From Plasmodiophora brassicae (Eukaryota; Endomyxa; Phytomyxea; Plasmodiophorida; Plasmodiophoridae): a stretch of 64,000 nt of DNA. Location of the stretch: the NCBI GenBank assembly GCA_039704465.1, contig JASFAU010000011.1:496001-560000 (forward strand). The letters run 5' to 3'. Under the pieces are notes generated by a model. The model made no database searches. It saw only the letters and a list, made by a program, of their open reading frames with translations, and was not told the DNA's origin. Within the stretch, counting starts at the first letter, position 1. The number at the start of each line of letters is the position of its first letter. This document shows, in pieces, positions 4,071 through 36,700 of this stretch. The position numbers and the translations under genes were made by a program.

Positions 4071-4080
4071 CTATAAATAG
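4071..4080. promoter_or_regulatory. Palindromic TATA box between divergent genes
   Basis: The sequence ctataaatag reads as a TATA element on the plus strand and as ctatttatag on the minus strand. It lies about 110 bp upstream of the minus-strand start at 3961 and 255 bp upstream of the plus-strand start at 4335, embedded in very GC-rich sequence. It could serve either or both genes. Confidence 0.55.
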
Positions 4081-6754: not shown

Positions 6755-6979
6755 CAATGTCGGCCAGTGGACGACTGGGGGTCCCGTCGACCCCCGGAAG
6801 CGTCTGCTTTGCAAGTTCCCGTTCGGCGACGTGTCGAACAATAGTGTTGTCCCACTCAGCCGTTCAGTACACCCATGCGTTGACGATGGAAACAGCACTA
6901 CGTTGTAAACGACGTCTCTATCATCGATTTGGAAACAACGGCATTATTATTACTTGCTTAGAGATACGCTAAAGACAGC

Positions 6980-9190
6980 CTAGTCTTTGGCATCTTCTTC
7001 ATCGCTGGATAGGTCGTGTCGAACGGGACCCGGTTTCTTGACGGGAGGCAGGCGCTTCTTCTGCCGCATGTCCTTGAACTTCTTGCGGTCATCTTTACGC
7101 TCCTGCTTGACGTCGACCTTATCGTCATCGTCGTCGTCGACCTTCTTGGCCTTGACGGGAGGCTTCACGGGCGCCAGTTTCTTCGCCGGCCCGCCCTTGG
7201 GCAGCCGTTGAGCAATCGGCTCTGATGGCGGCGCCTCCAGAGGGATCTGGTCGTCTTCTGAATCGGACGAAATATCGCCACGCGCGGGAAGCACGACAGG
7301 CGTCGCCGATGGACGAGACGTTGGCCGCGATAACGATGGACTGATCGAAGCCGGGCGCGACAACCCTGGCTTCTCTGTGGAAGTCGTCCGTGATAAGCTC
7401 GGTTTCTCAGTCGACGGTGCCCGCAGCACATTTGGCTTCTCGGGCGAAGCAAGAGGCGGCAACCCGGCCCTCCGAGCGCCGGCAGGAGCAACGGGAGCAC
7501 CAAGCGGAGCAAGCTTACGGATCGGATCCTTGACTTCCAGGGCTGAATCATCGACCCTGCTTCTAGGGCTTTGCCCAACGATGGAATCTACCTGCTTCGT
7601 CTCTACTCGTGCGCGAACTGGTGCAACCAGCTCGACAGAAAGCGGTACCGATGGCGGTACGTCATCACCCAGCGTCAGTGGAGAGGCAGGCGGAGGCACT
7701 TCAGCGGGCGCAGCGACTAGGGACGGGGACTCTGGGACAACTGGGACCACGATCGTTGGGAGCCTGCCGGGAGTTTGCCCTTCTTGTTCTCGTGGTGATC
7801 GGGGTGCCGCAATGGGCGGTAGGGCAGATTCGGACGGAACCTCAGCGCCGGTTGATTCTACGACACTTGAACGTGAAGGCAGCTGCGTTGCTGGTGATGC
7901 CTCTGCCGAGGCTGGCGGTATGGCTGGCTCTCGGTGGGGTTCCGCCCTCCCCGACCCTGATGCACTGGGAAGCCGACGAAGTTGCGGCCTTGGTGAAGCC
8001 TGTCGAAATCATGGTAAGCACATGAAAGGTGACCCGAACGTATACATCGTCACTGACGATCGGAGGAAGAGACTGTAGGACCGAATCCCCTGGCGTCGGT
8101 GTAGAAGCCGTTCCTTCGGTGGAAGTGGGCTTAGGAGGCTCAGCCGAATCAGTTTTCGCACGCCTGTGACCATCTGCGGTCAGGCAAGATTCTGAGAAAT
8201 CCCGGAAGACAGCAACGATGTTACCTAGAGTCACGCGACGTAGACGCCTGTCGTGAAATCGTCTTCGATGGAGCAGCAGAAGGACGTCGAGACGCTGCTG
8301 GAGTTTGAGCCTTACTGGCCGGAGGCTACGACATGGTTAGCAACGTAGCATACAATGGATAACGTGCAACAGACCCCATTTGTGCGAATAATACAGTTCC
8401 GGCAGCGGGTTCTGAACACCTGCAGAGCAAACGTAAGTACGACGATTACGACTAGAAGAAGACGGGCCGCCGACTTGGTTTTCTCTGTAGAAGTTTCGCC
8501 ATTTCTCATTCTCGTTGAACTCCTTCATGAATTCAGGATTCAACTTCAGCTTATCGAACTTGTCGACGAGGTCCATGAATCGAATCAGCTGCTCGACGGA
8601 CAGGTTCATCACCGTGCCACACTGTTCACAAGCTCCTATGATTCGGAGTCTGAGCATCCGGCTATGTGGCTCCGGTCAAATGCTTCTATACCTTTCCGGG
8701 CGCCGAATGTGACCCCGGAAACCAACGCCCGCAGTCGTAGATGCTTGCGAGATCTTGCGAGCCACCATTCGCTGATAGACCTCGCAGCTTCAGAGCGATC
8801 GCCGAGGTATACCTGCATCACTCGTGTTATGAAACGGGATACAACCGGAAAACACTGATACCTCTTGCTTCTTTTCCTCATCCGAATGGAAGGCCTCGCT
8901 GTCAGAAGAAACATCATTGACGTTATCGAAGTGGCCGTCCGCTTGCTGGTGGATGAGGGTCTCGTATTGGTTGATTAGGTAAGGGCGGTTTCTCTCGATT
9001 GATCTAGAATCCATACGTTATCCTCTGACCATACGCACACGTGATAATTGTCTGACCTTGGAGTTAGAACTGATGTGAGATGGTGAAGGAGCCAGAGTTT
9101 GTTGTGCTTCAAGAATTTCATCCGAACAGCCTCCGACGTGATGTTGCTCCTCAGCTCATACTTCTCCTCGTATTCGCTTAGTTCCGACAT
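6980..9190 (-). other. Giant protein: cytoplasmic tail with CxxC pair
   Basis: Several small exons encode EYEEKYELRSNITSEAVRMK, FLKHNKLWLLHHLTSVLTPR, RNRPYLINQYETL, an acidic SSDSEAFHSDEE run and ISEWWLARSRKHLRLR. Next come CEQCG and, about 60 residues later across an intron, CRNC (VFRTRCRNC), a plausible two-part zinc knuckle flanking FNENEKWRNFYRENQ. The last segment (about 6980-8240) is Pro/Ser/Ala-rich with STEKPSLSR-like repeats, then VKAKKVDDDDDDK and a basic KKRLPPVKK stretch. The CxxC module and the VLTPR/RPYL segment are the parts most likely conserved in relatives. The Pro-rich end is probably lineage-specific. Confidence 0.75.
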
Positions 9191-12100
9191 CTCGTCCGCT
9201 TCGCCTTCCTCTTTCTTGGGAAGGTACCATAACTAGGACAAAACGTTGTGAACGGACTTGAAGCAGCCCATCGATATGGTTCCCACCTGGATCCAGTCGC
9301 CAAATAGGCAGAACAACTCGCGGAAGATATAGCATGTGAATATTGAGTACCCAATAACAACAGGAAACAGACTGTCGGAGAAGAGAACGTAACCCTGCCG
9401 AAGCATGATTGTCATCCCTACAGGTGCCAGTCTGTGACATGTACACCATGGTTCCGATTCATGTACTACCGATTATCAGCAGGACGATGCCAAGAGAGTT
9501 GAACCCGGCTATGAAGTAAAACTGGGACGAGAAGCACAAATGGTCCATGAGCTGGAGGTCTGGCTTCAAAGTAGAGTCCATTTCCGTTTCGTCTGGACGC
9601 CACCTCTCTTTTCGAATGCGGAATCGATATCTAAAACGATCCTTAGCAGGCATAAGACCTGTGCCTAGCAGCTAAGGTACCGAGAAAATTCGGCATAGTC
9701 GAATATAGGCCACGTATGGAACAGTTCTTGCAGGTTTAGGACGACCACGTCGATTCCTAACACTATATGAGTTGACTGTTGAAACGTCAGATATACGTGG
9801 TCAAGGTACCGAATTGGAAGATGATGATAACGATTGAGTAAATGAGGTAGATTCGAAGGTCCCCGGACGTAATGCCATAATTGAACGGGATTTGCGTTTC
9901 TTTGTTCCAGAACATAACGAATAACAATGTCATCGGCGACAATATTAGACCGATCGTGTCGTTCGCATAAGTGTTATAAGCGTCGAGCATGGGTTCGACA
10001 GTGGCGGAATCAATCTCTTCAAGCATCAGGTGGATCTAGCCAAAAGATTCAGAATGGCATTACGGCAAAGCCAACCACAAAACGAAACCTTCTTCTCCAA
10101 GATGGCCGCAGCTGCTTCTTTATCGCCGCGCTTAAGAGCCTTAGCTTTGAACTTCGCTTGCAGGATGGGGAACATTTCCTTTGCCCAATTTATAAACGGG
10201 TTGATGTATACTCGCTCGCCGCACTTTGCAACGACATTAGGAAACCACTCAAAGGAACCGTCGTGCTGGTAATACCAGGAAGGCAATGTCGACAAAGTAG
10301 GATAGGACGAAACTGAAGATGTCCGCAGCACCAACAGTGATAAGGAATTGGACAATGTTCACCGTCACCTAAGATTCGCATTCAGAGTGCGGATGCAAAC
10401 AACGTTACGGCGCAAATATGACCATTAGCGGAGACACAAGCATGAGATCACCAACCGTATTGGTCAGAACCGTCTCAAGGAAGATCGACATAACTGCGTT
10501 GCACGTGAGTTCGCCGCTTTACTCCATGGTGCCTTCTTACCTTTGTATACAACAACGAAACCGTACGTATATGACGCGAAGTACGATGTGTAGGAAAATT
10601 CCATTATGTACGTCAGGCCAAGTGTCAAAAGCGTTGCCATGAACACCAGCTGGATTCGTCGCCATTGAGTAGGGTTCCAGAACGTTGACTTCAAACTCCC
10701 CCGCTCACGATGTTTGGTGACAATCATCCGAGCACCTTAGAACAATGTGTCAGTGATATTCCAAAATTACTGCTTGTGATAAGACCTTGTATCAGGATGC
10801 AGTACGCCACCGTCATTATCATAATGGATAAACGACCAGTGCGATACAGGTCGACGGTCGTTTGAGTCAGAGTTGTTAAGTCAAGGTACGCGCCGGTGAC
10901 TGATGAGAACGGATATAGGACGTTGAAGAATATGTACCTGACGCCGAAGTCAATGACAAAAGCCCATACATTGATCCTGTACTTACACGAAGGCAGCAAG
11001 AGTGACCACTGGCCCATATATGCATATGCCCCCAAGCACAGGAGAGGGAATGACGATCTCAAAGTACTGGAAGAATTTGAAGGCCGGTGGCGTTCTATGA
11101 TGGATGATGATGCGGTTGATGAGGAAGAGAGTGAAGACTGAAGAGAATCCCATAAGGCCGACAACGCAGAACACAACAGCATAGAGTTGAAGCCCAAATG
11201 CGAACGAGTTCATCAGGTCGAACCAAACTATACACATCGAGGTTGGTGACTTCACAATCACATGGAACTAAAGCTTACTCATAGGTGCCCAGGTAATTTC
11301 GAGAGTGTAAGTCGGTGTGTAACCTGTGGATAGGTTCCCCAACACGGCTTCATCCAAGACGTACTGAGGCACTTGGACCCAGCCCGTCAGGTTGACCGAT
11401 GCGAGAATAAGCCGGCGCGTCGTCGCGGTGCGTTGGAAATATTGCAGTTGTAGCCCAACGTACCTGCCAACATTCAGACTCAAATGTCGGAGGACTGCCC
11501 CTGATACGTACGTTGGTGTGTAGATGTTCCCATCTTGTGGCATATCGCTTTTCACAGTGACTGGGATCATCGAGTCGGATCCAATCAGTGCCTCGTAGTA
11601 TTGCCAGCCTTTGAAAAACTCCACATTCGATTGAGGATCTACGACGACATGTCAAACGAACGCTGGGACCTCGTCCGCGGCACACAAACCTTGACTGAGA
11701 AAGAACATTATGGAATCCGATGGTAATTCGAACCATCGCACCTGAGGCGCAATGACATCCAGCTCTTCTTCAATGGCACACGTCGTCACGAAATTGCACC
11801 GGTCGCTGCTGCCAGCAAACCCGACTTGGAAATCGCCGACTGGAACAACAGGGTCGGCAAACGTGCAAGATGCTGGATCTGATATTGCGAACTCGACGGG
11901 AATGTGCTGGGAGAACCTTCAAAAGTGTTACCAGTAGTTGACGAATCAGCTACAGAGAATTCAAACCGTTTGCAGGCTGTGAAGAAAGGGAAGTATGGTA
12001 ATGGAATGATCCCACGAGCAGGATCTCCTCCGGGTCCATCGTTGAAATAGGTCGGCGACGGTGTCACCGAGTCCAGTGGCGGTTTAATCTGGGCAAAGTT

Positions 12101-15100
12101 CGAGTACGACGTCTCATTGACCCCGACGTCCAGGAACACGTAGGTGTTGTTAGCATTAGGCAGGTTCAAAGGCAACACAAGTCCCAAGTCATTTGCGACT
12201 TTCTGTACCATCCAGGGTCAGCTACTGCTCCCGCAAGGCAACACATCGGCATTACTTCTTGGTAGAAGGCGTAGAACGCAAAGTCGAACGACTCTTCGAG
12301 AGGATCAGTGTTTGATCGCTTAGGGCGAAATGTGCTAACTGTGATCGTATTCTTGAACTTGTCCATTTCGCTCATGTAGAACTCGTTGAATAACTGTGAA
12401 GCGTATATGAGCGAAGCGGCAGAAATGCAACTCTGCTGGGGGCTTACTTCGACCGTCACATTGACCTGTGCAGGCAGAACAGCGAAGATGTACAGGTCGA
12501 ACTTCATCTGTTTCATCGGGTCGGCCGTGTCGTTCCAGAACCAACTTGGGAGCATCATTCGGCTGGGATTCCCGTTCAGACGAAGGGAGAGAACGAATTC
12601 GGCGTCAAACCCGATTCTGAAAACAGGCGTGTAAGTGAATTCTGATCATAAGGAACAAGTGGCCGCTTCTACTGACAGTGGTTTGCGGGTCCAGTCGATG
12701 TGCATGATAGCCATTTCCAAGGGTTGTACATCAACGATTGTCAGGTTCACAACTGGATACACCGAGTCGATGACTTCGCACGTGTCCAGAGAGAAACAGT
12801 TCTTCGCGCAGGAATTCATGTCTTTGGCGCCAACTGGCGACGTTGTGCCGCCTGAATAATGCTAAGCAGGAAATCGGTAAACACCAAGAACTAAACGCTA
12901 CTTACGTGGACAAGCATAGCGCGAGCCAAGAGTTGACGGCGGAGTCCAAAGCCCTGGAGGGCAGTAGTAGCCTGCTTCGCAGGGGAATTGCAGGTATGTT
13001 ACAGCCGATGTGCCATTGACGCAATAGTAGCCCTCTGGACAGACATGCATGTACTGTGTGGCAGGTGTTGTTCCTAACAAAGAAATGGGTGAGTTCCGTA
13101 TTGGCAATGTCATGTGAACCTGCAAAGAACCTGCAGGACAGTAGTAGCCCCCAGGGCACGGGAATTGCTGCCACCATCGGTAAGTGACAACATAGAGCGA
13201 GACCATGAAAGCAATACCTGCGACATTTCCTGTGTGGTGCCGTTGGGACACACATTGCCAGGGGGACACTGAAGATTCAGGTCCAACTGCGGTGGCTTCG
13301 TGCGGCCTATAGTTTAAAGTTCAGTGTATGCCACAGAATATGAATCGCCGCGCGACGCCTAACCTTCTGTCCCGCAAACCCATCCAGCGTAGCAAACGTA
13401 GCAATCATCGACAGACGTTTGGCCAACTCGGTCACCCCAGCGTCCTTCCGGACACGACAGACAAAAGCGTTCGTTGGTTGAATCGTCTCTGTATGTGCCC
13501 TACGCGACAACACTGAACAACCAAGACCCTCGATTATAGAGTCGCTGCTTACAGGAGGGCATATTAATGGCTGAGTGGTTGCATCATAGCCACAAGAGTA
13601 ACCAGCTGGGCATACCCAGCAACCGTAACTGTTGGTAATATTCGAGTAATAGCCGGGCGGACACGGCGATGCGACGGGTTCGCCAGCTTGTCTGGCGTAA
13701 TATCCGTCTGTTCCGTGTCCGTCAGAAAATAAGCAAATACAGGCGCATCAACGTAACGGACATCCAGGCAAGGACGGCTGGTATGACCCTGCAGGACAGT
13801 GCTCTCCAGGTGGGCAAATTGCCGTCCCATAGGGTGAACAGCTTCCAGTTTGACAGTACCATCCTGAATGTGTCATCACATCAGAAGAAGGGAATGCGAG
13901 GTCAGCATTTGCACAAACCTTCGGCACAGAGCTGGGGAGTGGAAAAGTTGTACAGTTGAGGTACAGACGTGGCGGTTCCTTCAACACAGTAATATCCTTG
14001 CGGACAAGGAATTGGTTTCTGCAAAGTCGACGTATCGTTGGGCATTGCTTGTGTTCCTGGAAAATCGGCATGTGAGCACGTTTTGGGTCAACATGTGCAC
14101 CTGACTACATGTCAACCTGAATTGCAGAAATAACAAGGAGGGCACCGATGTGGGGGCGTCGCGCGTCGAAGCGTATTGCACACAAAACCGGCTGGACAAA
14201 CAAGAGGCGCCTGCGCTGGATCTGGGCAGATCTGATACGGTATATCGACTCAATGTCATAGAAGTTCGACTAAGTCATCGGTTTCGTACCATTCCAAATG
14301 GACAATACCGACAAATTGATTGTCCAGTGAGCACATTGAAAGTTCCTCGTTGACAAGGGATCGGATACGAATTCCCCGTTCCTACGGATCTAACGTCATG
14401 CTGTCGTTCTGCGGTGTGTCCAGCCATGATTACCAGGACAGTATGTTCCGACAGGGCAGATAACTGGAACTCCATCTGGACAATAGTAACCGGTAGGGCA
14501 GGAGCCATCACCTGGAAGGCTCGAGTCAGAGGGAACGCTGAGATACATCAGCCAAGTAACCTTGTCCAGATTCAGAAGCAACGCCGCACCAGAAACCTGA
14601 TCGACAAATAACGGGATATCTTTGGGCGATCTGCGTCCTGTCAAGGTAGGATGGTCCACTGGAGGAAACACCATCCCCAAAGGTCGTATTAGGAGTACCC
14701 TGTTCAATAATTAAGACATTGCTAAATAGGTGGACATATATCACATACCATAGAAACTCCAGAGCCGCAGTAGTAGCCAGCTGGGCAAGGTTGTGGGAAG
14801 CTATGAACCCTCATTACCGATGAAGGTCCGATTTCCCACATCGCTATCGACTGGTTAACTGAGTTAAATCCAGAAAGGTACAATAGGTGGATTAACCCGC
14901 CGTCAGACACTATAAGAACATAATTACATGATTACAGACGATAGAATCAACAGAACGCTACTCCTTGCCTGGCATGGCAGGAACCTTCCTCTCCGCAATG
15001 TAATTTAGCATGTAGGAACCGTCGGTTTGGCCGACGTCGATAAGCAAAGACGTTGTGGACCCAGAGCTGGTCCATATACGAGATCTCGAAACAGAAGAAC

Positions 15101-18100
15101 CATTCGCGAAGTTCCCTGCAAACGAATTAGGAGTGGAAGTGCAGTACATTACCAGTGCCATGTACCGTCGGTGACAAAGAGCATTGTCCTGGCATATAGC
15201 GAACCGACGTAGACTGGGTTAGACCCAAGGGACCCTACAGTTGTTATAGTTGAACCATCTGATTTGTAGAATGTCGAAGAAGAAGCAAAGTAAAAGCTTC
15301 CACGAAACAGGCAAAGGTACGTCGCAGCAGTTGCAAGAGAGTGGACAAGCGTTGATGGTGTCAGCCCATCGGTTTTGTAGATGTTATTGCCACTGTTGTG
15401 CCATTAATTAATGGCGGCCAGGGAATATTTTGACCATGCGCCAACTTACACTTGATAAATGGCAAATCCATTGTAGATCGCCCAGAAAGTGCTAACTGAT
15501 GCTGATATGGGCAAGCCAGGATGAAGAAGGATCTGGCTATTCGTCGCGGTTTTTGCTGAATACAAAGCTCTGGACGACGCCCCACTGACGGCAGTGAACA
15601 GGACGCGACCTGGACCGATACCACTCCACAGCTGAACATTTGAGTTGCCAGATGGGCTGAAATCGTAGATGAGGTTTCGGACACCGGATGTCACATTGTA
15701 GGAGTATAACTCAATGTCACTACCGTTGAACCAATCCAGTTTTAGGCCAACCCCTGTGTTGACATGAATGGGAGTCATCAAATGCGTAACAACGGTCCTA
15801 CCTGACACCGTAGCAGAAAGGTTAGCGTACATGGCGGTGCCGTTTTCAATATACATGAGTTGCTGGAAGAATCCATTCACAAAACTAACACCAAAATTGG
15901 CAGCTGCCAAAGACTTCTGGTGAGCGTAGACCTGTGTCGTAACGCTCAGTGAAAGGAGTCATGGCAAACACGTGCCCCCGTTAAATTCACCTTGACGTCG
16001 ACGCTGGTACCTGCGGGACACCAGTAGCCCCGTGGGCAAGGCTGAGTAGGGCGATCCAAACCCACGTCACCGCAGACGAAGCCTGAGACCGTGCTGTTAT
16101 GAGTATCCGTCCAGCAATGCACCTCATAGGTTACGCACCGGCTGTACAAGGGACAGGAACAGTGGATCCAAATCCTGGACAGAAGGAGCCGCGAGGACAG
16201 ACAGTGCATTGGATCTGGCCTGACGACGAATATGTTCCAGGAGGGCAAGGGAAAGAGGTCCCCATATCGGCGATCGGGCACCAGTCTCCACTGGGACATT
16301 GGGCAACTGTTGCCGGCGTACCTTGTAGTACGGTTGTGCCTCGAGCGCTCACCTAAGACATTCTGTTAGATTTAGCATTGTACGTACCGTAAGAGGAAAG
16401 ACCATACAGAACGCGTAAATGCCTGGCCACTTGATGTCCATTGGTAGCCGCCATCGTTGCTTATCTGTACCGTGTACACTCCCGAAACGGTGCTCGGCGA
16501 AACAAAACACTGCACTTCAGTGGATACGATAGTAACGGAACATGAGAGCAGTGGATATGCGGGTTGAGACTGTCCCAGCAGACCGCTCCGTGAAACAAGT
16601 TGAACAAAGAGGTCCGAGCCGGGCACAAAGTTCTGCCCATCAATAGTAATGACTGTACCAGGAAGCCCTACAAGAATCGTATGAGGAATGCAGCTGGATG
16701 TGGCCACGTTGCAACATTTACCACTCAGTGGACTGACGGAAGTTATCACCGGTGCAGCCCTGAAAGTAAACGTTCCATAGGACGATGGAGTCCAGCTTGC
16801 ACCTGAATTTTGCGAAACGGCAAACGGAACAGTGCTTGGCGCTAGCGGTGGCGTATTGCATGATATCGATGAATTGGACTGACAGAACGTGAGGCAGGGC
16901 ACAAAGTTATGCATACCCGTTCTTACGATGAATCTAGCGGGTACCGCAGTGCTCCCGAAAAGACATTGCAATTGTTGGTTGTCGACAAACAAACTTCCAG
17001 ATACTGAAACCACGGTGCCTCCGGATAATGGGGCAACCTTGGGAGCAAACCACGAAACGGTGTCGGAAAATACCTGCAGGGGAGCCAGTCAGAAGAAACC
17101 TTTGGATGGAAACGTTACGTTGACCTTGAGTTTGACATCCGAACTGGAGAATTGCTCATCGTTATATGATACCTCGACCGAGCACACCCCTGGAAGCAGA
17201 TTTGGCAGAGGACACTGAATTTGCTGACTGCTAATGAAGGTGGCCACCGATCGGACAGCTGAGCAGAAGATGCACTGCAGGAGCGGATGTGAAACGAAGC
17301 CCGCACCCAGCACGGTGATGGTAATGCCGCCGACTGTCGGGACCATATTGGGAGACACCGAAGATAGCACGATTGAATTGACAAAGCGGAAGTTGATTGC
17401 ACTTCCAGGAATGTCATCAGCAGCGTTGATGCGAGCTGAAACTGAAACCGTCCCCACTGTTTCTGATCAGAATGGGTATACCGACGATGAAATGCGATGC
17501 CTTACTCGTGGCTGCAGGCGACTTGCAACGTATTTGGGTGGAAGAAACCCATACTGCAGGAACCAGCGTTGTCCCGAATCTGCAGGTTAACGTCGACCCA
17601 GTGTTTACGAAGTTCGAACCAATGAACGTAACAGTTGTGCTTCCGAACGCCGGACCCAAGAGCGGTGACACCGATGTTATAGTCGGTGCAGCATAGAAGG
17701 AAAACGTATAATTCGCACTCAGGTCCATTCCTATGCAGTTATATTCGCTGAGGACGACAATATAACGATATCGCGTTTGAACTAACCGTTGTTGCTGATC
17801 ATCAGCTTCACAGTCCCTGGAGACCCAGCAGCAGGCGTCAAACAATCCGCTGAAGTGCTGGATATGAAAGTCGCTGGAGATGACAGCAAGGTACCGAAGA
17901 AACAGGTAAGCATGGCGGAGTTCTCGAATCCTGTTCCAAACAAATGCACACGGGTGCCGCCAGAAACAGAACCAAGACTAGGCGTTGCGCCAAGAACAGC
18001 GACTGGGCTCATCGATAACGACGATGGAGACCCTATCACGGCTGGTGTTGCTGAAGGCGTAAACCGGTACATTACCGTTGGCAATGACCAATCAGTGCCG

Positions 18101-24100: not shown

Positions 24101-27100
24101 CGATGTGGATGTCATAGAGAGCACCGGGATGATTTCCGTCTGATTTGCAGACTTCCAAACGCATCCTCCGACAGAAGTAGGTGAGAACCCTGACCCAGTA
24201 ATAGTTGCAATAGTTGACGCGCTTGTCAGAGTGGGGGCAGAGCTTGGCACAACGGATCGCACAGTGGGAGCGGATACAACCTCCACGGTGGCATGGCCAA
24301 CAGCCTGCTGACCTTCCAACACGGAAAGCGTTCGGTGACCAAGCCATTGACCATTACTCGGGCTAGAGAAATTACAAGAAATCAAGCTCGTCGAAATCCA
24401 AACGGCGGGAACAGAAGTGGTTTCAAAGGCAAGCCTGCACGTTCGCGTTGCATTGGGGAACTGGGAGAACGAATATGTGGGGGACGATAACTGTATGACA
24501 GCGGGCATGCCATTATCGACAATATGAGACGGGTTTGCAACCAACACAGATAACGTAAACGAGGCGGAAGACGCTGATGCTGCCGGGGGCGAGGTTTTGT
24601 AGGTGAGGGCAAGTGAGAGAGATCCCATTGTCGCAACCGTACTTCCGTCAATCGTGAGAGATAATACGACAGGAGAATAAAGAGTGCTGTTGGCTAATGG
24701 TGCCACACACGAGATGAGGTTGGCTGAAACAACAATTCCTTGGGAGCGCCTCTGCCCATCAAAGTAGCAAACCGCGTTGGAGGTCAACGCGAATCCGCTT
24801 CCAATAATGGTCAGTGTTGTCGCAGGATACACAGGCGATATTGCCAGTGGCGTCACTGCAGACACCTTCGGAGGATCGACAATTGAAACGGTCCACGGCC
24901 ATGGAAGGAAGTCTACCGATCGCGATGGGCTGACAGATACGCGTAGGGGACATGGCACAGTAGATACAGTTACCGCAGCAGTGATGCGGGTGTTTGACAG
25001 ATATCGGAATGACGTTAGAGTTTGAGAGATTTGACCCACACGAACGCGATCAACGAGCTGCAGATCCGAACCGTCAATGATGACCTTGCTTTGGACGGCA
25101 TCAAACCGCACACTGGAGACCACGGGTGATCGTTCTCGATATTCGAATTGAACCGCACTGCCTGGAACTGTCTCGAGACCAGTGAGCATTAAAGCCACTC
25201 CGACAACGTGAGGCGACTGAAGAACCGGCATCCTGCACATGATCCAGGACGGTGTACACAGCGTCGGGTTAACTGTTGTCATATTTACAATCAAACATTG
25301 CGTCAATCCGCAAACAATGCCTGTGCCGGTAACATTGACAAGAGCACCTCCAACGCCAGACGACGGCGACACTGATAGAACGGTGGGTAGAGCGGCATAA
25401 TACTGGAGAGAAAGGGGCTCTGATGAAACAGCTGACTGGTTGATGCCAGTTGTCACTGCAAATGAAGCCCACTTCGCTGTTGGGTTTGGCCAGGGAGGTG
25501 ACACTATCACGACAGTCAGTTCACATGACACAGGCGTAAATATCTGACGTACGAAACGTTATTGTCTTCGAGTCGATGACATTCGCGGGGACAGAAACAT
25601 TAGTACTCCCAAGTGCGACGCGTATTTGGAATGACAAACTGTCATTGAAATTAGAACCCACAACCGTGATCAAAGCATTTCCGCGATATGAGGTGAATGT
25701 AGGAGTAAACGACGTGACCGTTGGGATAGGCAGGATCGTAATTGACCCTAACGATGAGAACACTTGAGCAAGTGCATCGTCGGAGTACTCCACACGAACT
25801 GGGCTTGAATCGGTTCCCAGTGCAGGCATAACGCAAGCTGGAGATTTCGACCCGAGTGACATGCTTGCCGTAACCAGAATAGAACCATGGAAACGGAAAG
25901 ACCCAGCAGGTGCAGGGCTTGTCAGGTTTCGAAGGGTCCCACCAGGAACGACGGTAGACGTGACAGTACTTCCACCAGTGTCAAACGAGTACTGCGATGA
26001 GGAACCCAGTACCATCGGCATGGTGCTGTGTCGAACATAGAAGATACGTACCTTTGCCGTATCAACAGGGGACCCAGCAATTGAGTCCGTTACAGTAAGG
26101 TCGCCTACGACATCCCACATTATCGGCGGCAAGATACAGGTCGCCTGGGCCGATGAAGCAAAGGAACATGATTGCAAGACTGCAAAAACTCCATTCGTGC
26201 TCAACTGAAATACCGAGTATGATGCGTTGAAACTAAGCAACAAGCCATGCATAAGAAAACAACGGGTGTTTCGAAAGAGTTCACTAACCTCATCCCAGAT
26301 ACTGTGACAATAGTCGACGAGTTTCCGACGGTAACAAGCCTCGGCCAGACTGAAGTAATGGTGGGCGCCGCAATAATATCAAATGTCATCCCGCCTACCC
26401 AGTCTGTCCCATTATTGATACTGACAGCAAATGAAACACCAGTCGAGGGAGTCGTATACTGCGGTGTCACGCAAGTGATTGAAGTGGAACCCACATCTCT
26501 TGCCATACGAATATCTGCGCCGCCAAAGCGGCACAGTACAGCCGACGAAAACGTGAACCCAGACCCAGTGATGACCATGGAAGTAGAGATTCCGACCAGA
26601 ACACGCGTTTGGGACAACGCCTGTATTGTGGGTGGGGCGGACAGCAAAAGCAGCTCTGGTGCGGATGTCCAACTAACCCCAGAGTCGATACTGATATAAA
26701 GAAGTACCGGGGTGGCGTTGTCCGTGTTGATTGTTACAGGACAGACGATGCGCGTAGACGAGACCGAATTTGGAGTAGAAGTGACAGTAAGCCCAAATCG
26801 ACACAAAGTGGTGTTGAAGAGGTTAGACGTTAAACGATCTGAACCAAGCCCGAAGAATTCTCCTATAACAGTAACAAGAGTGCTTCCACTATGAACCACA
26901 TTAGGGGAAAACGAGGTGATGCGCGGAGCCGTATAGACCTGGACAAATATCTTCAGCTTTCATGACATGAACAAATACACACAGGCCTACTTCGAGGATT
27001 CGCAGTGACCCATTGGCAGGAAGGTCTAAACAGTTGGGAGATACACCGACAGCAATTCGCTGGAAATAGGTAGGGGCGGTTGAACAAATCACAGTAGTTG

Positions 27101-30100
27101 ACGAAACGAAGAGTGGAACGACCAAGTTGTTGTTGATAGCACAGCATGAATATGTCGTAAAGTTTGATCCAGTGACAGTCAGAAGAACAGGGGAACCTCC
27201 AGGGACACGGAGTGGCGAAATCGATGACACGAATGGTATCTCCACGTACGAGAACGTCGCAGCACCTACTGCGTCATTATCACCCAGCGTGACGGGGATA
27301 TTGGTTTGAACGCGATCAGACGATGGAGACAGACAGGTAGCATGTGTTGAGGATGAAACCTTGGCAGGTGAACGGCGGCCGCCTGAGCCGAACACGCAGA
27401 AGGTTGCCGATGGGAATCCCGACCCTGTCAGTGATAGCACAGTGCCTCCCGAAAGAGAGCCAATATTTCCCGGGCGAATTTGATTGACGGCGCTTGGACC
27501 TCCCAGGTAAACAAACAAAGGAATGGATGAAACGTAATCAACCCCGTTGTAGCCGACACTGACGACAACAGGATATCCTATATCAAGTGCTGGGGCAACG
27601 CATAAAACTAGGTTCGTTGAGACGAATGTAGTCTGAGTTGACAGAACGGTCCCGAACCTGCAGACCAATGAGGGACCGTCCCGGAAACCAGTCCCGGTTA
27701 CGTTGATTATATCTCCGGCAATGCCAACCGAAGGGGAAATCATTAAATTGGAAGGCACATGCGAGACGTATTCCAAAGCGTTAGAGGCATCAAGACTTTC
27801 GTTGATCGTAACGCGGACTATAGAAGAGGAAGCCGCCATTGGTGGAACTTCGCAAAGAATAGTTGTAGACGATACGAAAGTTGTGCCCGTCACGAGTCCA
27901 GAGAATGAGCAGAGGGATGATGAGGCGAAATTTGTCCCAGTGACTGTGATCAGCGTGTCAGTTGTCCCAGTGACTGGAAGAATGCCCGAGATTGTCGCGG
28001 TCGGAGCAAGTGTGTCAAGTGCACCTATGAGGGCCTGTTACGAAACAATGCGGACCCATCGAGTATCGCTTTTACCTGCAGATAGAGATAATCCCTCAAC
28101 TTGAACACGGACAGGTGTCGAAGAAGACGATGAGAGTGTTGCACCGCTGGAATCGCAAACAATGGTAGATGAGGTCACTGAATTCGGCTTGCGTCGAAGT
28201 TCATTTCCTATCAGACACCACCAGGTGTCTGATGGACTGAAGTTGGAACCTGTTATAGTGACAAGACCACCGGGCGAAACGGAACTTGAAGTGACCGTCG
28301 GCGCAAGTCGAACGCTGAATGGTAAGCCTACAACCGTAAAATCTGCAGCATTATTGGATACTCTGACAACTTCGTTGACTGGCGACTGCGGCGGCAAAGA
28401 GCACGTAATCAGTGTAGAAGTATACCACACAGCAGAAACAGGGGTTTCTGCGCCGAAAAGACAACTAATAGCAGACTGTAAGACAAAACAGGGAACCTCT
28501 TCGCGACGACCTTACCTCAAAAGTGGAGTGCGAACAAACCCTGTTCCTGTTACCGTCACCGTGCTTGTGGCGAACGATTGAGTTACAGACGTGAGTGTGA
28601 TGTCAGCGTATACTTCCAGAGTAAGCTGATTGGAAAAATTCGCGCCACCGTTTGATACGTCCAGAGTGACGATACCAGTTGTCCCGAACAAAGGAGCCTG
28701 ACAGATGACCAGAGTGGAGCTTACACTCGTCTAGTATAATGTGTAAGAGGATCACGATCCAGCAACGTCCAATTTGTTGCAGACGTACCGCTGCAGATAT
28801 GGTCGTTCCGTTCCACCGGCAGACTAAGCTATTCGATATAAACGCAGTGCCCTGGACAGATACCGACGACTTGCTTGACTGCGGGATCAGCGACGGCACT
28901 ACACTTGATAGCCCCGGCAGTGCAACGTACCTGAAGGAAACAGATTACAATGTGCTGAAAAACAGTAAACACGATGCATACGCGAAAGTAGCACTGTCTG
29001 AAGAGTAGTCCTGTGCGTTGTTCGACATCGTCACTGATACACTAGAAGATCCATGCAAAAAGGCAGGGGACATGCACGTTGCGCACGTGACATTGCCATC
29101 GGCAAGATTGCCAGACTGCACAAAGCTTGCCGGAACAGCGAAGCCAGAGCCGAACCTGTGCAGTTATTCAGATCGCAGTTAATGGTTGAACAGCAATGTG
29201 TGCTGATCAGCTACGGTACCCGCAAGTCAATGATGACGAGTTCACGAAATTAAATCCGCACACGGTCAGTAGCGTTTGGCCTCCAAGGACTCCAAATGCC
29301 GGCGTCAACGACGAAACCGAAGGAGTCACGTATTTAAACAGTTGACCAGAATTGGAAAAATCTTGCGCGTTGTTGGACACTTCAACAGTCACGTCCCCTT
29401 GGGGGCTGCTCTGCAACGGTGCTGTGCACAGCAGTAGGGATGTCGACAGGTAAACAGCAGAAACAGCCTATTGTGTCAGCATTTAAAGATACAGCAACTC
29501 CTGAGAACTGTCACCAGTACCTTTTGCCCGAACTTGCATCGTAGCCCGAAAGAACTGATAAAGTTAGTACCGACAACGGTAATGAGAGAACCGGCAAAGC
29601 CAGTCGCTGGCAATAGCGACGTGACGGTGATAACATCATCAAATCGGAACTGCACTGTGGACTGCGATCGTTGCGCTAGGGTTGCTGGGGCAATTTCGAC
29701 AGAAGAGAATCCAGTTGCTGACGCAGGCGTCGATACCGTTAGCATGGTGGAGGATACGAACGTTGTGGACACGTTAACATCTGGTAGATCGACGTTAGAC
29801 GACAGACCGCTCACGAAAGCCATTTTTCTTACTTGCACTCGTGAAGAACACAATACATCCTTCAGTGAATCCAGACCCATATACCGTCAACGAAGTTCCA
29901 CCCCGAGTGAAACCGAATTCCGGATAGGTGTACGACAAAGTCGGGAACGCAGCGTATGTGAGACCCGCCATGTCGAAGAAATCATGACCGTTCGAAGTGA
30001 TGCTCAGAGTTTGTGGCACCAGAGCACCAACGGGTGACTGGCACTCTATCGACGAACCCGGAGATAAAGTCGTGGCGTTCACCTGACCAGCCATGTCAAT

Positions 30101-33100
30101 TTCGATATCAGGCCATTCTATGGCAACTTGTTACCATTATCGAGGAGCCAAGAGCATTTTTGAATCTGCACCAGACCGTTCCGGCAGTAAGGTAGTTCCC
30201 AGTGACCGTAACTGTTGATGTGCCAAGATTTGACAGAGGCCAATTTGCTGACGTTATACCATAGATCGTAGGCTGTGAGATATAGGTAAACGTAGCAGAC
30301 GTGTTGGTGAACTCAATGCCATTGACGGAAAGACGCACGGCCACGGATCCAAGTCCTTGGGCCGGTGCCGAACATATGACATGGTTGCTGTCGATAAATT
30401 TCACCGGCATGCTGGTGCAAGGTCAGAGCCAACGGAGCACCAATACCATTCCTGGGTCCTTACCTTCTCTTTGCGCCAAACATGCACACAAGGTTCGAGC
30501 TGTTAATAAAGCGCGTTCCCGTGATCGTAACCGACGTCACATTGGCGTATCCATAAGAAGGCGACAATGACGTAATCGCAATAAACGGGTGGAATACAAC
30601 GACGACTCCATCTTGAGTAAAATCTACTCCATTGAATGTTAGCTCGACTGTGAAAGAACCTGGATACATTGGCATTGGCGTCGCGCATGTCATTGTTCCC
30701 TCGGAAACGAATGTTGCGACGCTACGAATTCCAGCAGCAGGCCCACCGAACAGGCATAACATCCTGCAACCCAATGAATTAGCTTTCAAAACTTGCTGTA
30801 GACGACCGTGACTCACGTATCTGCCGCCCGTTGGACGAAGTTGGACCCCGAAATTGTCAGGAGTGTACCACTCCTGTACGGGTCGACAAGATTAGGGAAT
30901 ATTGAAGTGATATTCGGATCCATCTGGGTAAAGTATGTAATGGGCAATGACCACTGCCAGCCGTTTGAAGTAATACGCAACAGCGACGTTGACGCATTCA
31001 AAGTCGGGGTCCGACATTGAATAAGAGTGCTGTTTCTAAACGTTGCAGGCAGGAACCACGTCGAGTCGAAGCAGCATAATAGAGTCGAGGCGTTGCTAAC
31101 GCCAGCACATGCGATACTCAAGAGAGTGCCTCCTGAGAGGGAGCCGTAATTTGGAACAATGCTGACAATAGTTGGGTCAACCAAATAGGTAAATAGTACT
31201 GTCGATGAAGAAAAATCAACGCCGTTAGACGTAAGATCAACGTGAACGGCTCCGGTGCCACTTGCAGACGCCGGCGCAGTACAGACTGCAGACGTTGCTG
31301 TCAAGTACCTGTAGCTGGACGTGACTACCGTACCAAAACGGCACAGCGTACCGAGTGTTGTCGCGTGAGTTGCATTCATGAATCCTGACCCGAAAACGGT
31401 GACGGGGTACCCGCCGGACAGGCCGCCATGAGATGGAATGACCGATGTAACAGACAGATTCGGGTCATAGAGAAAAGTCTTGCCATAGTCGGAGAACTCT
31501 TGGCCGTTTGTCGAAACCTCGACAATCACTGGACCTGGGGAAACAACAGGCGGTACTGTGACCCGGACAACCGTCGACGATATGAATGTTGCTGCTACAG
31601 GATTGTGGACACCCGCGAACGATAGCAAGACGGTTGGCAAACGGAACCCAGTACCGGTGACATTGACACTGGAGCCACCACCAGCGACCGGTTTCGATCT
31701 TGGAAAGAAATCAGTGATGACGGGAAAGTCGCGGTATAGAAACGTGACTTGTGGAGAGCTCACAGAAACGTCAGCACCAGAGTTGACCGACACTTCAAGA
31801 GAGGCCTCTGTATTCGGCATACCTCCCGGAGTCGTACAGATCACTGATGATGAGTTAATCGTGGACGCAGACACAATAATTCCACCAAACACGCAGGACG
31901 TGACGTTACCAAATGCGACGCCAAGAACTGTAACCACCGTCCCGCCCTTAGATTTGCCATGATCCGGAATTGTGCTGGTTACTCTGGGTGTCGCGACGTA
32001 CATAAACGTGAAGCCCTGTGCGGAGTAATCTTGGGCGTTGCTCGAAATTTCGACTGTAACCAGCCCAGGAACGGAAACGGACGGTGTCCGGCAGACAAGC
32101 TCTGTACTCGATGTGACAGTCGCTGTAATGAATTGCGTCGCGCCAAACTTGCAAACCATATCCTGAGTCGCAGTAAAATACGACCCTCGTATGGTCAGCA
32201 ATGATCCGCCAGTAAGCGCTCCCCGCGACAAAGATAACGATGAGATCACAGGAAGCGAAGTAAAGTAGTATGCCACCTGACCAGATGTGTAGTCGACACC
32301 GTTTAGTGTTACTTCGATGAACATAGCAGACGATTGAGGAGACACAATAACCGGTGAAAGACAACGAACTGATGTTGAACTGACGTACACCGTTTGTACA
32401 GAAAGTTGGGCCCCCCCGTAACGGCATCGTAGTGCAGATGAAGGTGCAAACCCAACACCCGTAATATTGGCCCAGCTCGAACGGCCGTTAGCAGGCGCAG
32501 ATGAAGGCGAAACGGTAAGAATTTGTGGGTTTGCCGTATACGCGAAAACGATACCGAGTCCTGTGAAATCTCGACCGATGTTGTCTGTAACCTTAATCGT
32601 GACGGAACCAGGTGTAGCCTGTGATGGGGTTCGGCAACTCACGGAACTTGAAGTGAGGAACGTCGCTAGAACGATGGCATTTGGTGTTCCAATGAACTGG
32701 CACCACATTGACAGCGAGGAGTTGACAAACGATATAGCCGCGATTGTGACAATGGTCCCACCCAGGACAGTTCCATTAGTCGGGGAAACGCTGATGTAAG
32801 TTAGAGGGTCCTCATACGTAAAGTTCGCCGTCCCTGTGAACTGGACTGCGTTGTCACTAACTGCCAAACCGACATTTCCCGCAGAATTAGCGGCTGGAGA
32901 GGTGCACGAGATTGTGGTTGACGAAACCCATTTGGCGGGAGATGTCACACTGCCAAAGCGGCAAACCGCACTTGATGACGATTTTGTGAAATTTGAACCG
33001 ATAGCGGTGATGGGCGTTCCACCGTATACGGGTCCCCGGGGCGGGATGATAGATGTCAGAGTCGGCTGGTAAGCAACATACGTGAATGGAAGTGTAAAAG

Positions 33101-36100
33101 TCGACCATTCGGCTCCAGAATTACTGGAGACTGACAAGATGACGTCTCCAGATGATGACTGGGTTGGCGCCGTGCAAAGGACCTTCGTAGACGACATGTA
33201 ACTCGCGGGAACAACGATAACCCCAAATCGACATTGCGTTGTTGTTGGAAGAAACCCTGCGCCTGTGACATTGACGATGGCACCAGCAGAGCCGTAATCT
33301 GGATAAACGTTGGAAAGGCTAGTAGGGTGCTGGAAGTTGAACAGAAGGAAGTTACTGCTGAATACCTAAATTAACGTTAGTGCAAATGCCTGCAGATAAT
33401 CAACTCATAGGACTTTACCTGGCCATCATTCGCTACCGTCAGGTTGACGGCCATAGGTTGAGGAACCTTTGGGGATCGACAAGAAATTGCCGTCGAGTTC
33501 AAGAAAACCGCACTGACGACGTATTCTGAGAGCACGGAATACGATTTGAACGAGCACGCGAGGCTGGACTGATTGACGAACGTTGTGCCGATGACAGTGA
33601 CCCAGGCCCCACCTGGACAAAGAAAGGCTAGTGTCTGAGATTCATGCTATATCTTTGGGATGCTGCAACAAACCGTTGACAGAAGCGGTGCTGATCGTAG
33701 CACGCGTTACTGTTATCGCATTTGTGACAACGAAGTTGAATTGCGTAGTTTGGTACAGGTTCACATAGCCGTTCGAAAATCGAAATGAAAACGTTGACGC
33801 TGAACCGTGAGGAGGAACCGAGCACTTTACTCTCGTAGAAGAGTCGAATCTACGACACAGATAAGCACGTGGCTATCGAACAAGTTCACAAATACGCACG
33901 TACGAGGCCTGAGATGCCACACCAGAAGCAAAGCCACATCGAAGCAGCGCTGACGACTGGAAGCCAGCACCGGACACTGTTACGATTGTGCCCCCTGCAG
34001 TTGTCGATATACTTGGATAAACCGAGCTAACGACAGAAACAGGATAAATCGTGAACTAAGGAAGAAAGTAAATTGAAGCCACAAAACGTTAAAAGGCATT
34101 CGTGGCGGACCTCCATTGAATTTGAGGTAGACCAGTAGAGCTTATTCGTAAGAGACAAGAAGTAGGTACCATTGACCTGCGTTAAGATCAGTGCTGAGGT
34201 AACATAAAATGAAATGCATTGGCTTACGTTAACGACGGGAGAAACGCATTCTGCAGTTGAGCTTGAGATAATCGTCGCATTGGTATATATACCGCTTCCC
34301 CATTGACAGTAGATTTGGGACCGTCCCGTTGTCACAAAGTGTTCTCCGAATAAGGTTACGTTGACTTGTCCAGATTGCGGCCCGACGTCTGGCCACACTG
34401 CGGTGATGTTCGACTCAGCGAGATACTCGTATTGCGCGCCTGAAGAAGTGTACTGCTGCCCATTAAGCGTCACTTCAACCGCCACACTGCCAGCCGTAAA
34501 CGACGGTGCAGTACAAAGAATCGAAGTGTTGCTGACGAACGTTGGGGCAACTAGAGATTGACGCCCTCCGAATGAGCACAGAAGGGTTGATGTTGGCATG
34601 AAGTTGGTGCCGACAATGGTAACGACCGCCGTCGCGTCTGATGGTCCTTCTCTGGGCACAACGGCGGTGATTTCGACGTTATTAATATATGTGAATGGAA
34701 GAACATCCGGCGTCCAGTCGACACCATTGTCGGTGATAGACAACCTCGTGTACCCGGCCACGAGCTTTGGAGGCGTGACACAACTAAGATGTGTCGTGGA
34801 GAGGAGAGTCGCGGGTACGCTCCAGGTATAGTTTGACCAGCGACAAGCGAGCGATGGATGTTGGAAGAAGTTAGATCCGGTTACAGTAACAACGGAGCCG
34901 CCCTTGATCTCTGATATATTAGGACTAACAGAGGATACTGTCGGCATAGCCCTATAGGCGAAAGGTAACATGCTCGAAGTAGAATTGGTTTCGGCTTGGA
35001 CTGTGACGTTAGAGCCAAGGACCCCAGGAGGGGACGGACACGTTGCCGTTGAAATAGACTGGACCGTCGCTGTGTAAACGTGGCCTGATGACCATCGGCA
35101 TTGCATGCCGGTGGCGAAATCGGATCCGGACAATGTAACAACAGTGCCACCAGAAGGAGGCCCAAACGTCGGCGAAATACCGTCTATGTTGGATGCCTGG
35201 CCGATGGTTACGTGCAGATCGAACCGCTGTTTCTTCTGAATTCTTCCGCCATACGTGCTGGAACCAAAACCATCCACCTGCCAGTGGACGACATCGAGCC
35301 CGGAGAAGTAGGGGTCCCTGGTGTACAGTACGTCCGAAATGGCGTTGTTCATGGCAGTCACTGTGCCACTGTAGTTGAACACGCCGGACGGCGTGCCCGA
35401 ATTCTTCGACAAGCCCGAGTACGATTGCAGAACGATGATCCCTCTGTCGGCCTCAACAAGGCACTCCACATTCCGATTACCAATCAGAGCGGAATCCAAT
35501 ATCGAATTCGCCAAGAAGGAAACGTTCAACGGTTGAACATCACCAACACTCGTTACCAAACTGTTCACGCTGATGACGTTGACAGTAAGAGTTGCATTTG
35601 CAGATGCACTGGCACCGTCCGATACCCGGAAAAGGAATGTGTAAGAACCACTAGTGGCCGCCGAGAAAATGATGCGGTTATCAGGTCCAGTGATTACGTT
35701 TCCAGCGCGAATGTTGGAACCTCGGGCCCAGGAGCCCGAACACTGGTAAAGAGCCGCCCCAGATGGCGTAGGCAGAGACATGACCTGGACAAGAGCAATG
35801 GTGCCTGTCCCATTCAGAATGATGATCTGGTCCTGATTCGGATAGGCAATGACGCTTGTTCCGTATCCGCAGCCAGAGACGGGCCAGGCAGTTGTGCCGC
35901 TAACCGTCCCAGCGTTGAAGTTTCCTGAACTGTCACTGACAGGTGACGACCGAGAATCGAACGTCCAGCGAAGAATTAAAGTCGCCGGTACGACAATGTC
36001 GGGATAATCCATGGCGTCGGAAATGACTTGAGTGGACAGGGCCGATGCGTATATACGAAACTCGTCCATGGTTCCGTTGAACTTCAGAGTGGAATCTGAT

Positions 36101-36700
36101 CCGACACCGACATACAGCGGCTTTCCTGAGGCAGATGGGCTCCGGTATGCAATGGTGTTCACCTATAGGTATGTTAACCGAGCCTTTTACGCCGTCCATA
36201 AGGCCGTTACCGATGATGTAAGTACGCCATTTTCGAGAACGCTTATCTGGCCCGACGTGAACACAAGCGCAACGTGAACCCATACGCCGACCCCAGACAC
36301 GAGAGCGAAGTTCTTATCAAAACCTACTGAAACGAGTTACCTCCACGACAAGCGATGTAAAACGACAGGTACCTGAAGGTAGACGAACGCGAACAGCGAC
36401 ACCAGATATGATGTCAACGCGCCATTCTCCGTCCTTATGAGCCAAGGTGACGTTGCGATTAACGTTCACTTCCACCCACGACATTATAGTGAACGATGCC
36501 AGTCCTCCAGTGGTCGTGCAATTGTGCACGAAGTTCACATCGCGATTACATGACTCGGCGGAAGTAACATTGGTTGTCAGGCCGTCAAACTGCAACGCAT
36601 ACCCAGCAGTGCCGGCGATTGGGGACGAACGAACAAGGTAAACCGGAAGACAGAACGCAGAGAGAATCACAGCGAATGACGTGCGGGGATGGCGCATCAT
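6980..36700 (-). CDS. Giant LamG/IPT-TIG/GCC2-GCC3 multi-pass surface protein
   Basis: One gene of about 29.7 kb and, by my estimate, some 60 introns gives about 8,700 residues. It starts at ATG 36700 with a signal peptide (FAVILSAFCLPVYLV). Order: LamG domain, cadherin-like region, roughly 60-70 IPT/TIG repeats of about 87 residues (TSVSPxxG...VTITGxxF...CxFG...), Cys-rich GCC2/GCC3-like repeats, an extracellular beta-rich block, six or more membrane helices, and a cytoplasmic tail ending in a Pro-rich, then acidic/basic segment (SSDEEDAKD). I checked nearly all exon joins by phase. Introns of about 46-61 bp restore repeat motifs throughout, so I favour one intact gene over several. The C-terminal third resembles, from memory, uncharacterised large membrane proteins of oomycetes and ciliates. 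Surface adhesion, sensing or channel activity is inference. The gene is divergent from the coiled-coil gene at 36996 and convergent with the DYRK gene. Confidence 0.85.
9200..11262 (-). other. Giant protein: multi-pass membrane core
   Basis: Exons separated by 45-60-bp introns carry successive hydrophobic segments: LYAVVFCVVGLMGFSSVF, VLGGICIYGPVVTLAAFV, VWAFVIDFGVRYIFFNVL, IMIMTVAYCILIQGLI, LVFMATLLTLGLTYIM, LFVMFWNKETQIPFNYG, IYLIYSIVIIIFQFG, CFSSQFYFIAGFNSLGIV and FPVVIGYSIFTCYIF. The helix count (six to nine) is uncertain. The motif TYANDTIGLILSPMTLLF and the segment LMDHLCFSSQFY match what I remember of the oomycete/ciliate family. No known pore or enzyme signature is visible, so channel function is only a guess. 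Confidence 0.75.
11268..12860 (-). other. Giant protein: juxtamembrane extracellular block
   Basis: Read in order on the minus strand: CAKNCFSLDTCEVI, LPSWFWNDTADPMKQ, FDLYIFAVLPAQVNVTVEV, LPYFPFFTACKRFEFSV, RCNFVTTCAIEEELDV, QVRWFELPSD and VEFFKGWQYYEALI, ending just before the first helix at TLEITWAPMSK. It is rich in beta-type hydrophobic alternation, N-glycosylation sequons and scattered Cys. It separates the GCC2/GCC3-like repeats from the membrane core. I know no domain name for it. Its position suggests a ligand or gating module that transmits to the helices. Confidence 0.65.
12900..16370 (-). other. Giant protein: GCC2/GCC3-like Cys-rich repeats
   Basis: Repeated Cys/Gly modules of the ephrin-receptor-like GCC2/GCC3 type appear in short exons: CPSGDWCPIADMG, CPPGTYSSSGQ, CPRGSFCPGFG, CPRGYWCPAGTS, CPAGYYCGSG, CPTGYYCPDG, CPVGTYCPG, CPQGYYCVEG, CPPGEHCPAGS, CPPGYYSN, CPGGYYCPAGS, CPEGYYCVNG and CEAGYYCPPG. 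Between about 14,900 and 15,950 the Cys repeats are interrupted by a beta-rich insert with IYKTDGLT, FYKSDGST and LFVTDG, which recall ELWxxDGT-type propeller repeats. Intron density is far higher than in the IPT array. Confidence 0.8.
14910..14968 (-). other. Probable GC-AG intron in the giant gene
   Basis: No GT donor here keeps the frame between KVPAMP and VSDGGLIHLL. A donor reading ccag/GCAAGG (first intron base 14968) with acceptor ttatag (last base 14910) does, giving a 59-bp phase-1 intron. GCAAG is the usual form of a GC donor. It is the only non-GT junction I needed in this gene. Confidence 0.55.
16380..35180 (-). other. Giant protein: IPT/TIG repeat array
   Basis: An uninterrupted run of immunoglobulin-like IPT/TIG domains, about 60-70 by spacing (not aligned). 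Each shows the pattern ISxVxPxxGxxxGGTxVTITGxxF...CxFG...VxSSTxIxCxxPxxxxG.VxVxVSNNGxDF. Exons are long (about 18670-22990, 22990-25510 and 30810-33360 are nearly intron-free). Junction introns of about 40-61 bp usually cut inside a repeat, for instance restoring CxFGG at about 18,660 and NTKVLCVAPS at about 22,990. Sequons (NxS/T) are common, as expected for a secreted, glycosylated stalk. An apparent frame break near 29,830 is a normal intron (29781-29832). Confidence 0.88.
35180..36009 (-). other. Giant protein: cadherin-like linker region
   Basis: Within the large exon 34100-36162, after the LamG fold, the protein reads LILRWTFDSRSS, then GSYTFLFRVSDGASASANAT followed by LTVNVIS, a pattern seen in Ig/cadherin-like beta domains of surface proteins. 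It then has FNYSGTVTAMNNAISDV and a basic GRIQKKQRFDLHV leading into the first IPT repeat (ISPTFGPPSGGT). Domain naming here is tentative. Confidence 0.5.
36010..36700 (-). other. Giant protein: signal peptide and LamG domain
   Basis: Exon 1 (36700-36373) begins MMRHPRTSFAVILSAFCLP, a good signal peptide, then YALQFDGL and FTIMSWVEVN. A 46-bp intron (36372-36327), exon 2 (36326-36211, VWVHVALVFTSGQISV) and a 48-bp intron (36210-36163) lead to exon 3, which contains KPLYVGVGS and FNGTMDEFRIYASALS. Together these form a concanavalin/laminin-G-like domain with the typical W.HVA and G.MDEFRIY motifs. Both introns restore the motif order exactly, which supports the start at 36700. Confidence 0.85.

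Follow-up and report, generated by a model that had tools for sequence, protein, structure and literature searches.

Giant ectodomains and multi-helix membrane cores

Fibrocystin and fibrocystin-L/PKHD1L1 carry a giant ectodomain with immunoglobulin (Ig)-like IPT/TIG domains on a membrane anchor, and polycystin-1 likewise has a giant ectodomain, built of other Ig-like repeats, that is held by a membrane anchor. The subject here is a gene of Plasmodiophora brassicae, located at 6,980-36,700 on the minus strand of a 64,000-nucleotide stretch of contig 11 (C11; 496,001-560,000; hereafter the window), in a genome (G000) of 25.34 Mb in 21 contigs. Along this strand were found, in the order proposed by an initial annotation, a hydrophobic leader, a Laminin-G-like (LamG) domain, an IPT array, Cys-rich sequence, a polytopic membrane core and a tail with CxxC pairs. 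The fibrocystins differ in being single-pass proteins, with G8 domains in PKHD1L1, whereas the window core is polytopic and G8 had no match in the exons and stretches of the gene that were scanned (several small exons lay outside the scan). Polycystin-1 differs in its PKD, REJ, GAIN and PLAT domains, none of which was over cut-off in the scanned window stretches; a PKD-like match there was sub-threshold (K319L-like, 18.1 of 27 bits), and no polycystin profile was matched in the core. The Tgr/Lag proteins of Dictyostelium also bear IPT repeats at the surface, but are single-pass and far smaller, and are set apart by description. Set against the sizes of known proteins, the product may plausibly rank among the largest receptors of any cell surface.

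For the membrane part, the closest described systems are OSCA/TMEM63 and TMEM16, with TMC as a further relative in the Transmembrane Channel/Scramblase (TCS) superfamily; nhTMEM16, TMEM16F and TMEM16K are scramblases, and an acidic Ca2+ site on TM6-TM8 is a feature of TMEM16 only. The predicted core of the window family resembles OSCA/TMEM63 and TMEM16 in its ten-helix arrangement, and OSCA in an extra first helix and an N-out/C-in orientation, but has no sequence-profile match to them, and the described OSCA/TMEM16 members are not known to have a giant ectodomain. Meckelin/TMEM67 was considered as the identity of the core for its domain order (Cys-rich, beta-rich, polytopic core, cytoplasmic tail). 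It was rejected, as its profile PF09773 found no match in the core and a separate meckelin gene lies elsewhere in the genome; meckelin also differs in having no IPT array. That gene, at C3:875,011-877,548 (PF09773, E 1.3e-51), gave matches in its successive exons, and its presence agrees with a life cycle that includes flagellate stages. The mating-type proteins of Tetrahymena, with five transmembrane (TM) helices and a Cys-rich composition, are analogous by description only, going by the accessible part of the source (PMC10901506).

A spliced reading frame, its ectodomain and its tail

Gene models were made by dynamic programming from codon scores, GT-AG weights and an intron-length penalty. 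The ab-initio model runs from an ATG at 36,700 to a stop at 6,980 through 63 introns and 8,776 codons without an internal stop, and a model whose amino-acid and splice-site parameters came only from a paralogue on contig 9 (C9) reached 8,739 codons with 63 introns, of which 50 were identical. The C9-trained model scored +489; the plus strand scored -1,054, and 12 of 12 dinucleotide shuffles fell between -1,132 and -1,370, with 151-169 introns apiece. Moving seven sites in the core and tail by hand to nearby GT-AG pairs restored the alignment with homologues and gave the model used here for the whole gene, which ends at 6,980 and has 8,743 codons and 66 introns, their length being 43-64 nt (median 53). 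This hand-adjusted model retains two very short exons, one of 19 nt (13,288-13,306) and an implausible one of 1 nt (14,909); when exons below 12 nt were forbidden, the frame was still open, with 8,765 codons and 63 introns (43-110 nt), 57 of the 63 being the same as in the ab-initio model. The reading frame is robust, and some joins, mostly within 13,000-15,100, are uncertain. The single gene of about 8,700 codons that had been proposed is upheld by a spliced frame that stays open in these models and by a score that beats both the plus strand and the shuffles.

The GT-AG ends and the tight intron lengths are partly built in and so are not independent evidence, since only GT-AG was admitted and length was penalised; introns in Plasmodiophora brassicae are given as about 60 bp in the accessible part of a published account (PMC4471660). 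Earlier models, in which the intron penalty was flat or drifted, were discarded for their over-long or spurious introns. The corrected core depends on homologues, yet these homologues were found using the uncorrected core. GC content is 0.48-0.53 in 2-kb steps across 8,001-38,000 and 0.60-0.66 across 2,001-8,000.

The open frame starts at 36,712, right behind a stop, and the alternative start codons at 36,700 and 36,697 precede a hydrophobic leader (36,623-36,700; hydropathy 1.61 over residues 10-28) that is a putative signal peptide. The LamG domain of the initial annotation was recovered above cut-off at residues 67-195 (36,022-36,502; PF13385, E 6.7e-16, 59.2 bits against 27.6). It is followed by 58 IPT/TIG domains at residues 476-6299 (16,432-35,181), detected with an IPT profile that was made without the window, from the C9 paralogue and two relatives (P0005 and P0006), and cut at i-E<0.01. 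Sixteen of the 58 span a splice junction, in line with the proposal that tiny introns interrupt domain motifs which splicing rejoins, and the 60-70 repeats originally estimated prove close, as six domain-sized gaps may hide a few more. Pfam TIG (PF01833) matched seven of the eight scanned exons of the 64-exon ab-initio model over its 20.9-bit cut-off, the best at 286 bits (5.9e-87), and the eighth exon, which has no TIG, lies within the insert described below. Since TRF found no tandem array at the DNA level in the gene and the IPT copies average 28% identity (maximum 51%), the assembly is unlikely to have collapsed any repeats; the array is old and diverged, and mis-assembly is likewise unlikely.

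Two Cys-rich blocks stand behind the array. The first (15,991-16,410) has a sub-threshold match to PF07699, and the second (12,928-14,850), drawn from the model and its Cys content, has the least certain splice sites of the gene. They are separated by an insert with YKTDG/YKSDG-type repeats, about 280 residues long (14,985-15,931), which resembles residues 3634-3704 of a relative, P0014, likewise placed between Cys-rich blocks (BLASTP E 2e-4, pairwise); its scanned pieces, including the largest exon, matched no Pfam family, and judged by eye it is possibly a beta-propeller. A beta-rich extracellular domain (11,220-12,849) ahead of the membrane core is conserved in homologues, with strands in the structure model of the P0002 core and low confidence in the other structure model.

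The cytoplasmic tail of 623-624 residues (6,983-9,223) contains two CxxC pairs, as the initial annotation had it, CEQC at 8,619-8,630 and CRNC at 8,393-8,404, the latter depending on a splice site picked by homology. An acidic serine motif of the SSDSE/SSDEE type occurs three times (8,895-8,909, 7,256-7,270 and 6,995-7,009), against a mean of 0.03 in 1000 shuffles. Among the nine tails examined, this motif is found in eight (P0006 is without any), a W-x-x-x-[AS]-[RQ] motif in all nine, and at least one CxxC in eight, with both conserved sites in six; P0003 is cut short. Sequons number 113 in the ectodomain against a shuffled mean of 73, with 0 of 500 shuffles as high, and are not enriched in the tail (2 versus 2.2 shuffled), as expected for an N-terminus outside and a C-terminus inside; we infer that the N-terminal 7,600 residues are extracellular and the tail intracellular.

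The membrane core, its family and a possible function

The core (9,227-11,207) is polytopic, as had been proposed; family-averaged hydropathy, two structure models of homologue cores and fold matches give it about 11 helices in the membrane, numbered TM0-TM10 by analogy. By sequence, it represents a conserved family that is without a Pfam entry: the window core had no Pfam family at E<=10, and in eight core members no family attained its cut-off. A first protein search with the uncorrected core found four relatives, P0001 (E 2e-128), P0002, P0003 and P0004, and a profile search returned eight proteins, two of which, P0005 and P0006, have TIG domains and carry the core. Limiting the search to giant lengths added P0014 (5,918 aa, 36 IPT domains), P0015 (6,408 aa, 39), P0016 (6,661 aa, 44) and P0017 (7,627 aa, 39), the last being the hypothetical protein PybrP1_009425 of Pythium brassicae. 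All four have the core after the array, as does P0006 (2,632 aa, 6 IPT domains), while P0005 (3,015 aa) has 12 IPT matches, the last inside the region just ahead of the core, and ends within the core. The core profile has 1,130 positions and was made from six sequences that match it by construction (window, C9 paralogue, P0001, P0002, P0003 and P0006); of the others, P0014, P0015 and P0016 are covered over nearly the whole core, whereas in P0004, P0005 and P0017 the match is partial. Identity to the window core is 21-31% across the relatives compared.

The C9 paralogue (C9:1,141,438-about 1,166,000; L033-L036) has about 59 IPT domains, a Cys-rich region, the same core and, by eye, a hydrophobic leader; no LamG was seen in it, and its dynamic-programming model overruns into neighbouring sequence at the 3' end. 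Array and core are thus joined in P0014-P0017, P0006, P0005 and this paralogue, and their sharing by homologues favours a single architecture. The oomycete kinship suggested in the initial annotation is confirmed for one named species, Pythium brassicae; a ciliate relative, also suggested there, may exist. P0014-P0017 are like the window protein in having 36-44 IPT domains followed by the same core, and the tails of P0014-P0016 share its CxxC pairs and W-motif; the window protein is unlike all four in its LamG tip and its larger number of IPT domains (58). P0017 has a hydrophobic start by eye, as in the window, but also about 1,000 other residues before its IPT domains, with a cadherin-like match just under cut-off (PF17803, 23.5/25.1 bits). 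Past about residue 6,850, soon after the CFSSQ motif of the core, P0017 becomes arginine/alanine-rich, and its C-terminus looks frame-shifted in the record.

In a tree of 11 core rows, from which P0005 was left out for its incomplete core, P0001/P0014 and the window form one group (90/93), and the C9 paralogue sits on the oomycete-like side (84/83); this placement is unsure, since branches are long and neither branch attains the tool's starred level. The other six proteins of the profile search were dropped as probable Cys-repeat look-alikes: P0007, P0010, P0011 and P0012, which were compared with the core profile, had no core match, and P0008 and P0009 are fish proteins. Searches with P0002 gave 3 pattern matches in viral contigs and 18 in bacterial/archaeal ones, and no relative was among them.

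Fold comparison places the TCS superfamily, over the same helices, in the top 17 rows for one core model and the top 8 for the other, the best being mostly nhTMEM16, TMEM16F and TMEM16K. Mixed families follow below, with other helical proteins ranked under TMEM16 in these comparison (VIA) lists; that other channels do not appear there excludes nothing. The core is predicted, from models of moderate to low confidence, to have an extra first helix with a ten-helix bundle like that of OSCA/TMEM63 and TMEM16. Acidic residues are conserved at the TM7 start and the TM8 end in 11 of 11 rows and at a second TM7 site in 9 of 11, and TM6 is not conserved; the first residue of EPMLDAY (9,976-9,996), at the predicted cytoplasmic start of TM7, is acidic in all 11 rows compared. 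Other comparisons gave no significant match. Foldseek returned no match at E<=0.001 for either core model; Pfam Anoctamin, RSN1_7TM and TMC were absent both from the window core matches at E<=10 and from those of all eight core members at E<=1; a sequence-profile search of PDB gave nothing under E 0.28; and hhalign of the core against OSCA (0.18), anoctamin (0.18) and the TM core of the C2/C6 loci (0.59) was not significant, with E values of 0.51, 0.21 and 0.51 in the reversed controls. The channel-like character claimed for the core gains support from fold comparison and none from sequence profiles.

The reading that we tentatively prefer, while rating it short of probable, is that one gene encodes a plasma-membrane tethered mechanochannel (or lipid pathway) of about 8,740 residues. 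In such a protein the LamG tip would bind a ligand of sugar or matrix type that is displayed by a surface, by prey, by a host or by a partner cell, and the IPT rod, perhaps 200-260 nm long at about 4 nm per Ig-like domain, would transmit pull. The Cys-rich and beta-rich domains would couple the rod to the first helices, the core would open to let cations (or lipids) pass, with Ca2+ perhaps modulating it at the acidic TM7/TM8 residues, and the tail would recruit cytoplasmic partners, CK2 or calmodulin being a guess. A whole class of protist mechanosensory channels in Rhizaria and oomycetes, each with its own covalent stalk (up to about 60 Ig-like domains, about 200 nm), ligand tip, couplers and a new pore of OSCA/TMEM16 fold, is possible but doubtful. 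The proposed architecture is weakened at its Cys-rich part: PF07699 (GCC2/GCC3) reached 16.1 bits in the gene against a cut-off of 23.1, and a genome-wide PF07699 search listed no match inside the window, whereas the C2, C3 and C6 loci of the same genome do carry GCC2/GCC3 over threshold. The GCC2/GCC3 repeats of the initial annotation thus survive as a block enriched in Cys (4.4% versus 2.3%), and their family identity does not reach the cut-off. An indirect hint at a zoospore-stage link comes by analogy from Phytophthora cinnamomi, where TIG is among the top Pfam domains unique to zoospores in the accessible part of the study (PMC8360494), and may not represent the core-bearing family. PF01833 is also differentially abundant in Plasmopara secretomes, with the direction given by colour only in the portion available, and nothing is drawn from it (PMC7217449).

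It is quite possible that the core instead has a membrane fold of its own, new and without kinship to TMEM16/OSCA, and that its matches reflect generic helix packing, as the Foldseek and profile negatives and the limited model confidence would suggest, but the concentration of the top rows of both models in one superfamily, over the same helices and with mixed families below, argues against chance packing. A giant adhesion or recognition receptor, whose stalk binds partner cells, prey or host and whose core only anchors it or signals to the tail, without a pore, would agree with the conserved tail motifs and with the adhesion-type LamG and IPT domains; IPT, Laminin G and fibrocystin-L stand under cell adhesion or signal transduction in the accessible part of an expression table for a bacterivorous flagellate (PMC7852580). 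We consider this rather unlikely, as a plain anchor needs no 11 or so helices conserved in all relatives compared and the fold comparison indicates a channel/scramblase fold. That fold could also serve a TMEM16-like lipid scramblase on a stalk, acting at membrane contacts (phagocytosis, fusion of plasmodia or zoospores) and not as an ion channel. The scramblases among the best fold rows point this way, as does the common latent lipid passage of TMEM16 and OSCA described in the accessible part of PMC11534332, but the TMEM16 members lie 1-2 Z units apart, too little to tell scramblase from channel, and the extra first helix is OSCA-like, which leaves this alternative improbable.

Finally, as the gene model comes from genomic sequence, an IPT-only secreted protein and a separate core gene could lie head to tail and have been fused by the model. 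The splice sites at about 13,000-15,100 are the weakest, and 13 of 63 introns differ between trainings and 6 of 63 with short exons forbidden. Such a split is nevertheless very improbable, given that the ab-initio, hand-adjusted and short-exon-forbidden models are all without an internal stop, that 16 IPT domains are completed across introns, and that the C9 paralogue and P0014-P0017 hold both parts.

The locus establishes a family of polytopic membrane proteins that are very large and conserved. If the core is of TMEM16/OSCA type, it would be a channel that carries its own built-in extracellular tether, a design which in hair cells is assembled from separate proteins. The family offers a concrete candidate for the means by which phytomyxids and oomycetes, in their flagellate or amoeboid stages, sense and grip surfaces. 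It also allows the splicing and maintenance of such large genes to be studied in a genome of 25 Mb. In open-licence literature, the accessible text returned by searches aimed at the core family held no description of it, no paper was found on the TIG domain with Plasmodiophora, and the accessible portions of oomycete TIG-domain papers do not describe the family; no TIG or IPT domain appears in the accessible part of a flagellar-gene paper (PMC3471859). New here are the core family, its paralogue in the same genome, the giant relatives, one of them from an oomycete, and, as a lead, the TMEM16/OSCA likeness of the membrane part.

Related and neighbouring loci

Ordinary anoctamin and OSCA genes are present in the same genome; no TMC was found in it, by a search that matched no control either. 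Two further loci have IPT domains. One, at C6:about 1,289,000-1,305,000 (L040-L042; boundaries approximate), has IPT and GCC2/GCC3 repeats and a TM core of another kind, behind which its dynamic-programming model continues, by eye, into GAF-like repeats and a protein kinase. The other, at C2:1,341,000-1,353,000 (L037-L039), has an IPT array, many GCC2/GCC3 repeats and a membrane core of the KMKILLGFFQI type, which by eye resembles the C6 core.

In the published e3 assembly of Plasmodiophora brassicae, as given in the accessible part of its description, 25.1 Mb are arranged in 20+1 (mitochondrial) contigs, 13 of which have T4AG3 telomeres at both ends (PMC6823432). Three copies of TTTTAGGG were found once in the present genome, near the C3 end, by a search that skips simple repeats, which is fewer than those telomeres would lead one to expect. 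Elsewhere in the window, the plus strand has ankyrin-repeat open frames at 39,249-40,877 and 55,213-58,475, IBR domains lie at 41,257-42,081, the minus strand has four KH_1 stretches at 43,294-45,564, and a partial protein kinase lies at 5,156-5,818.

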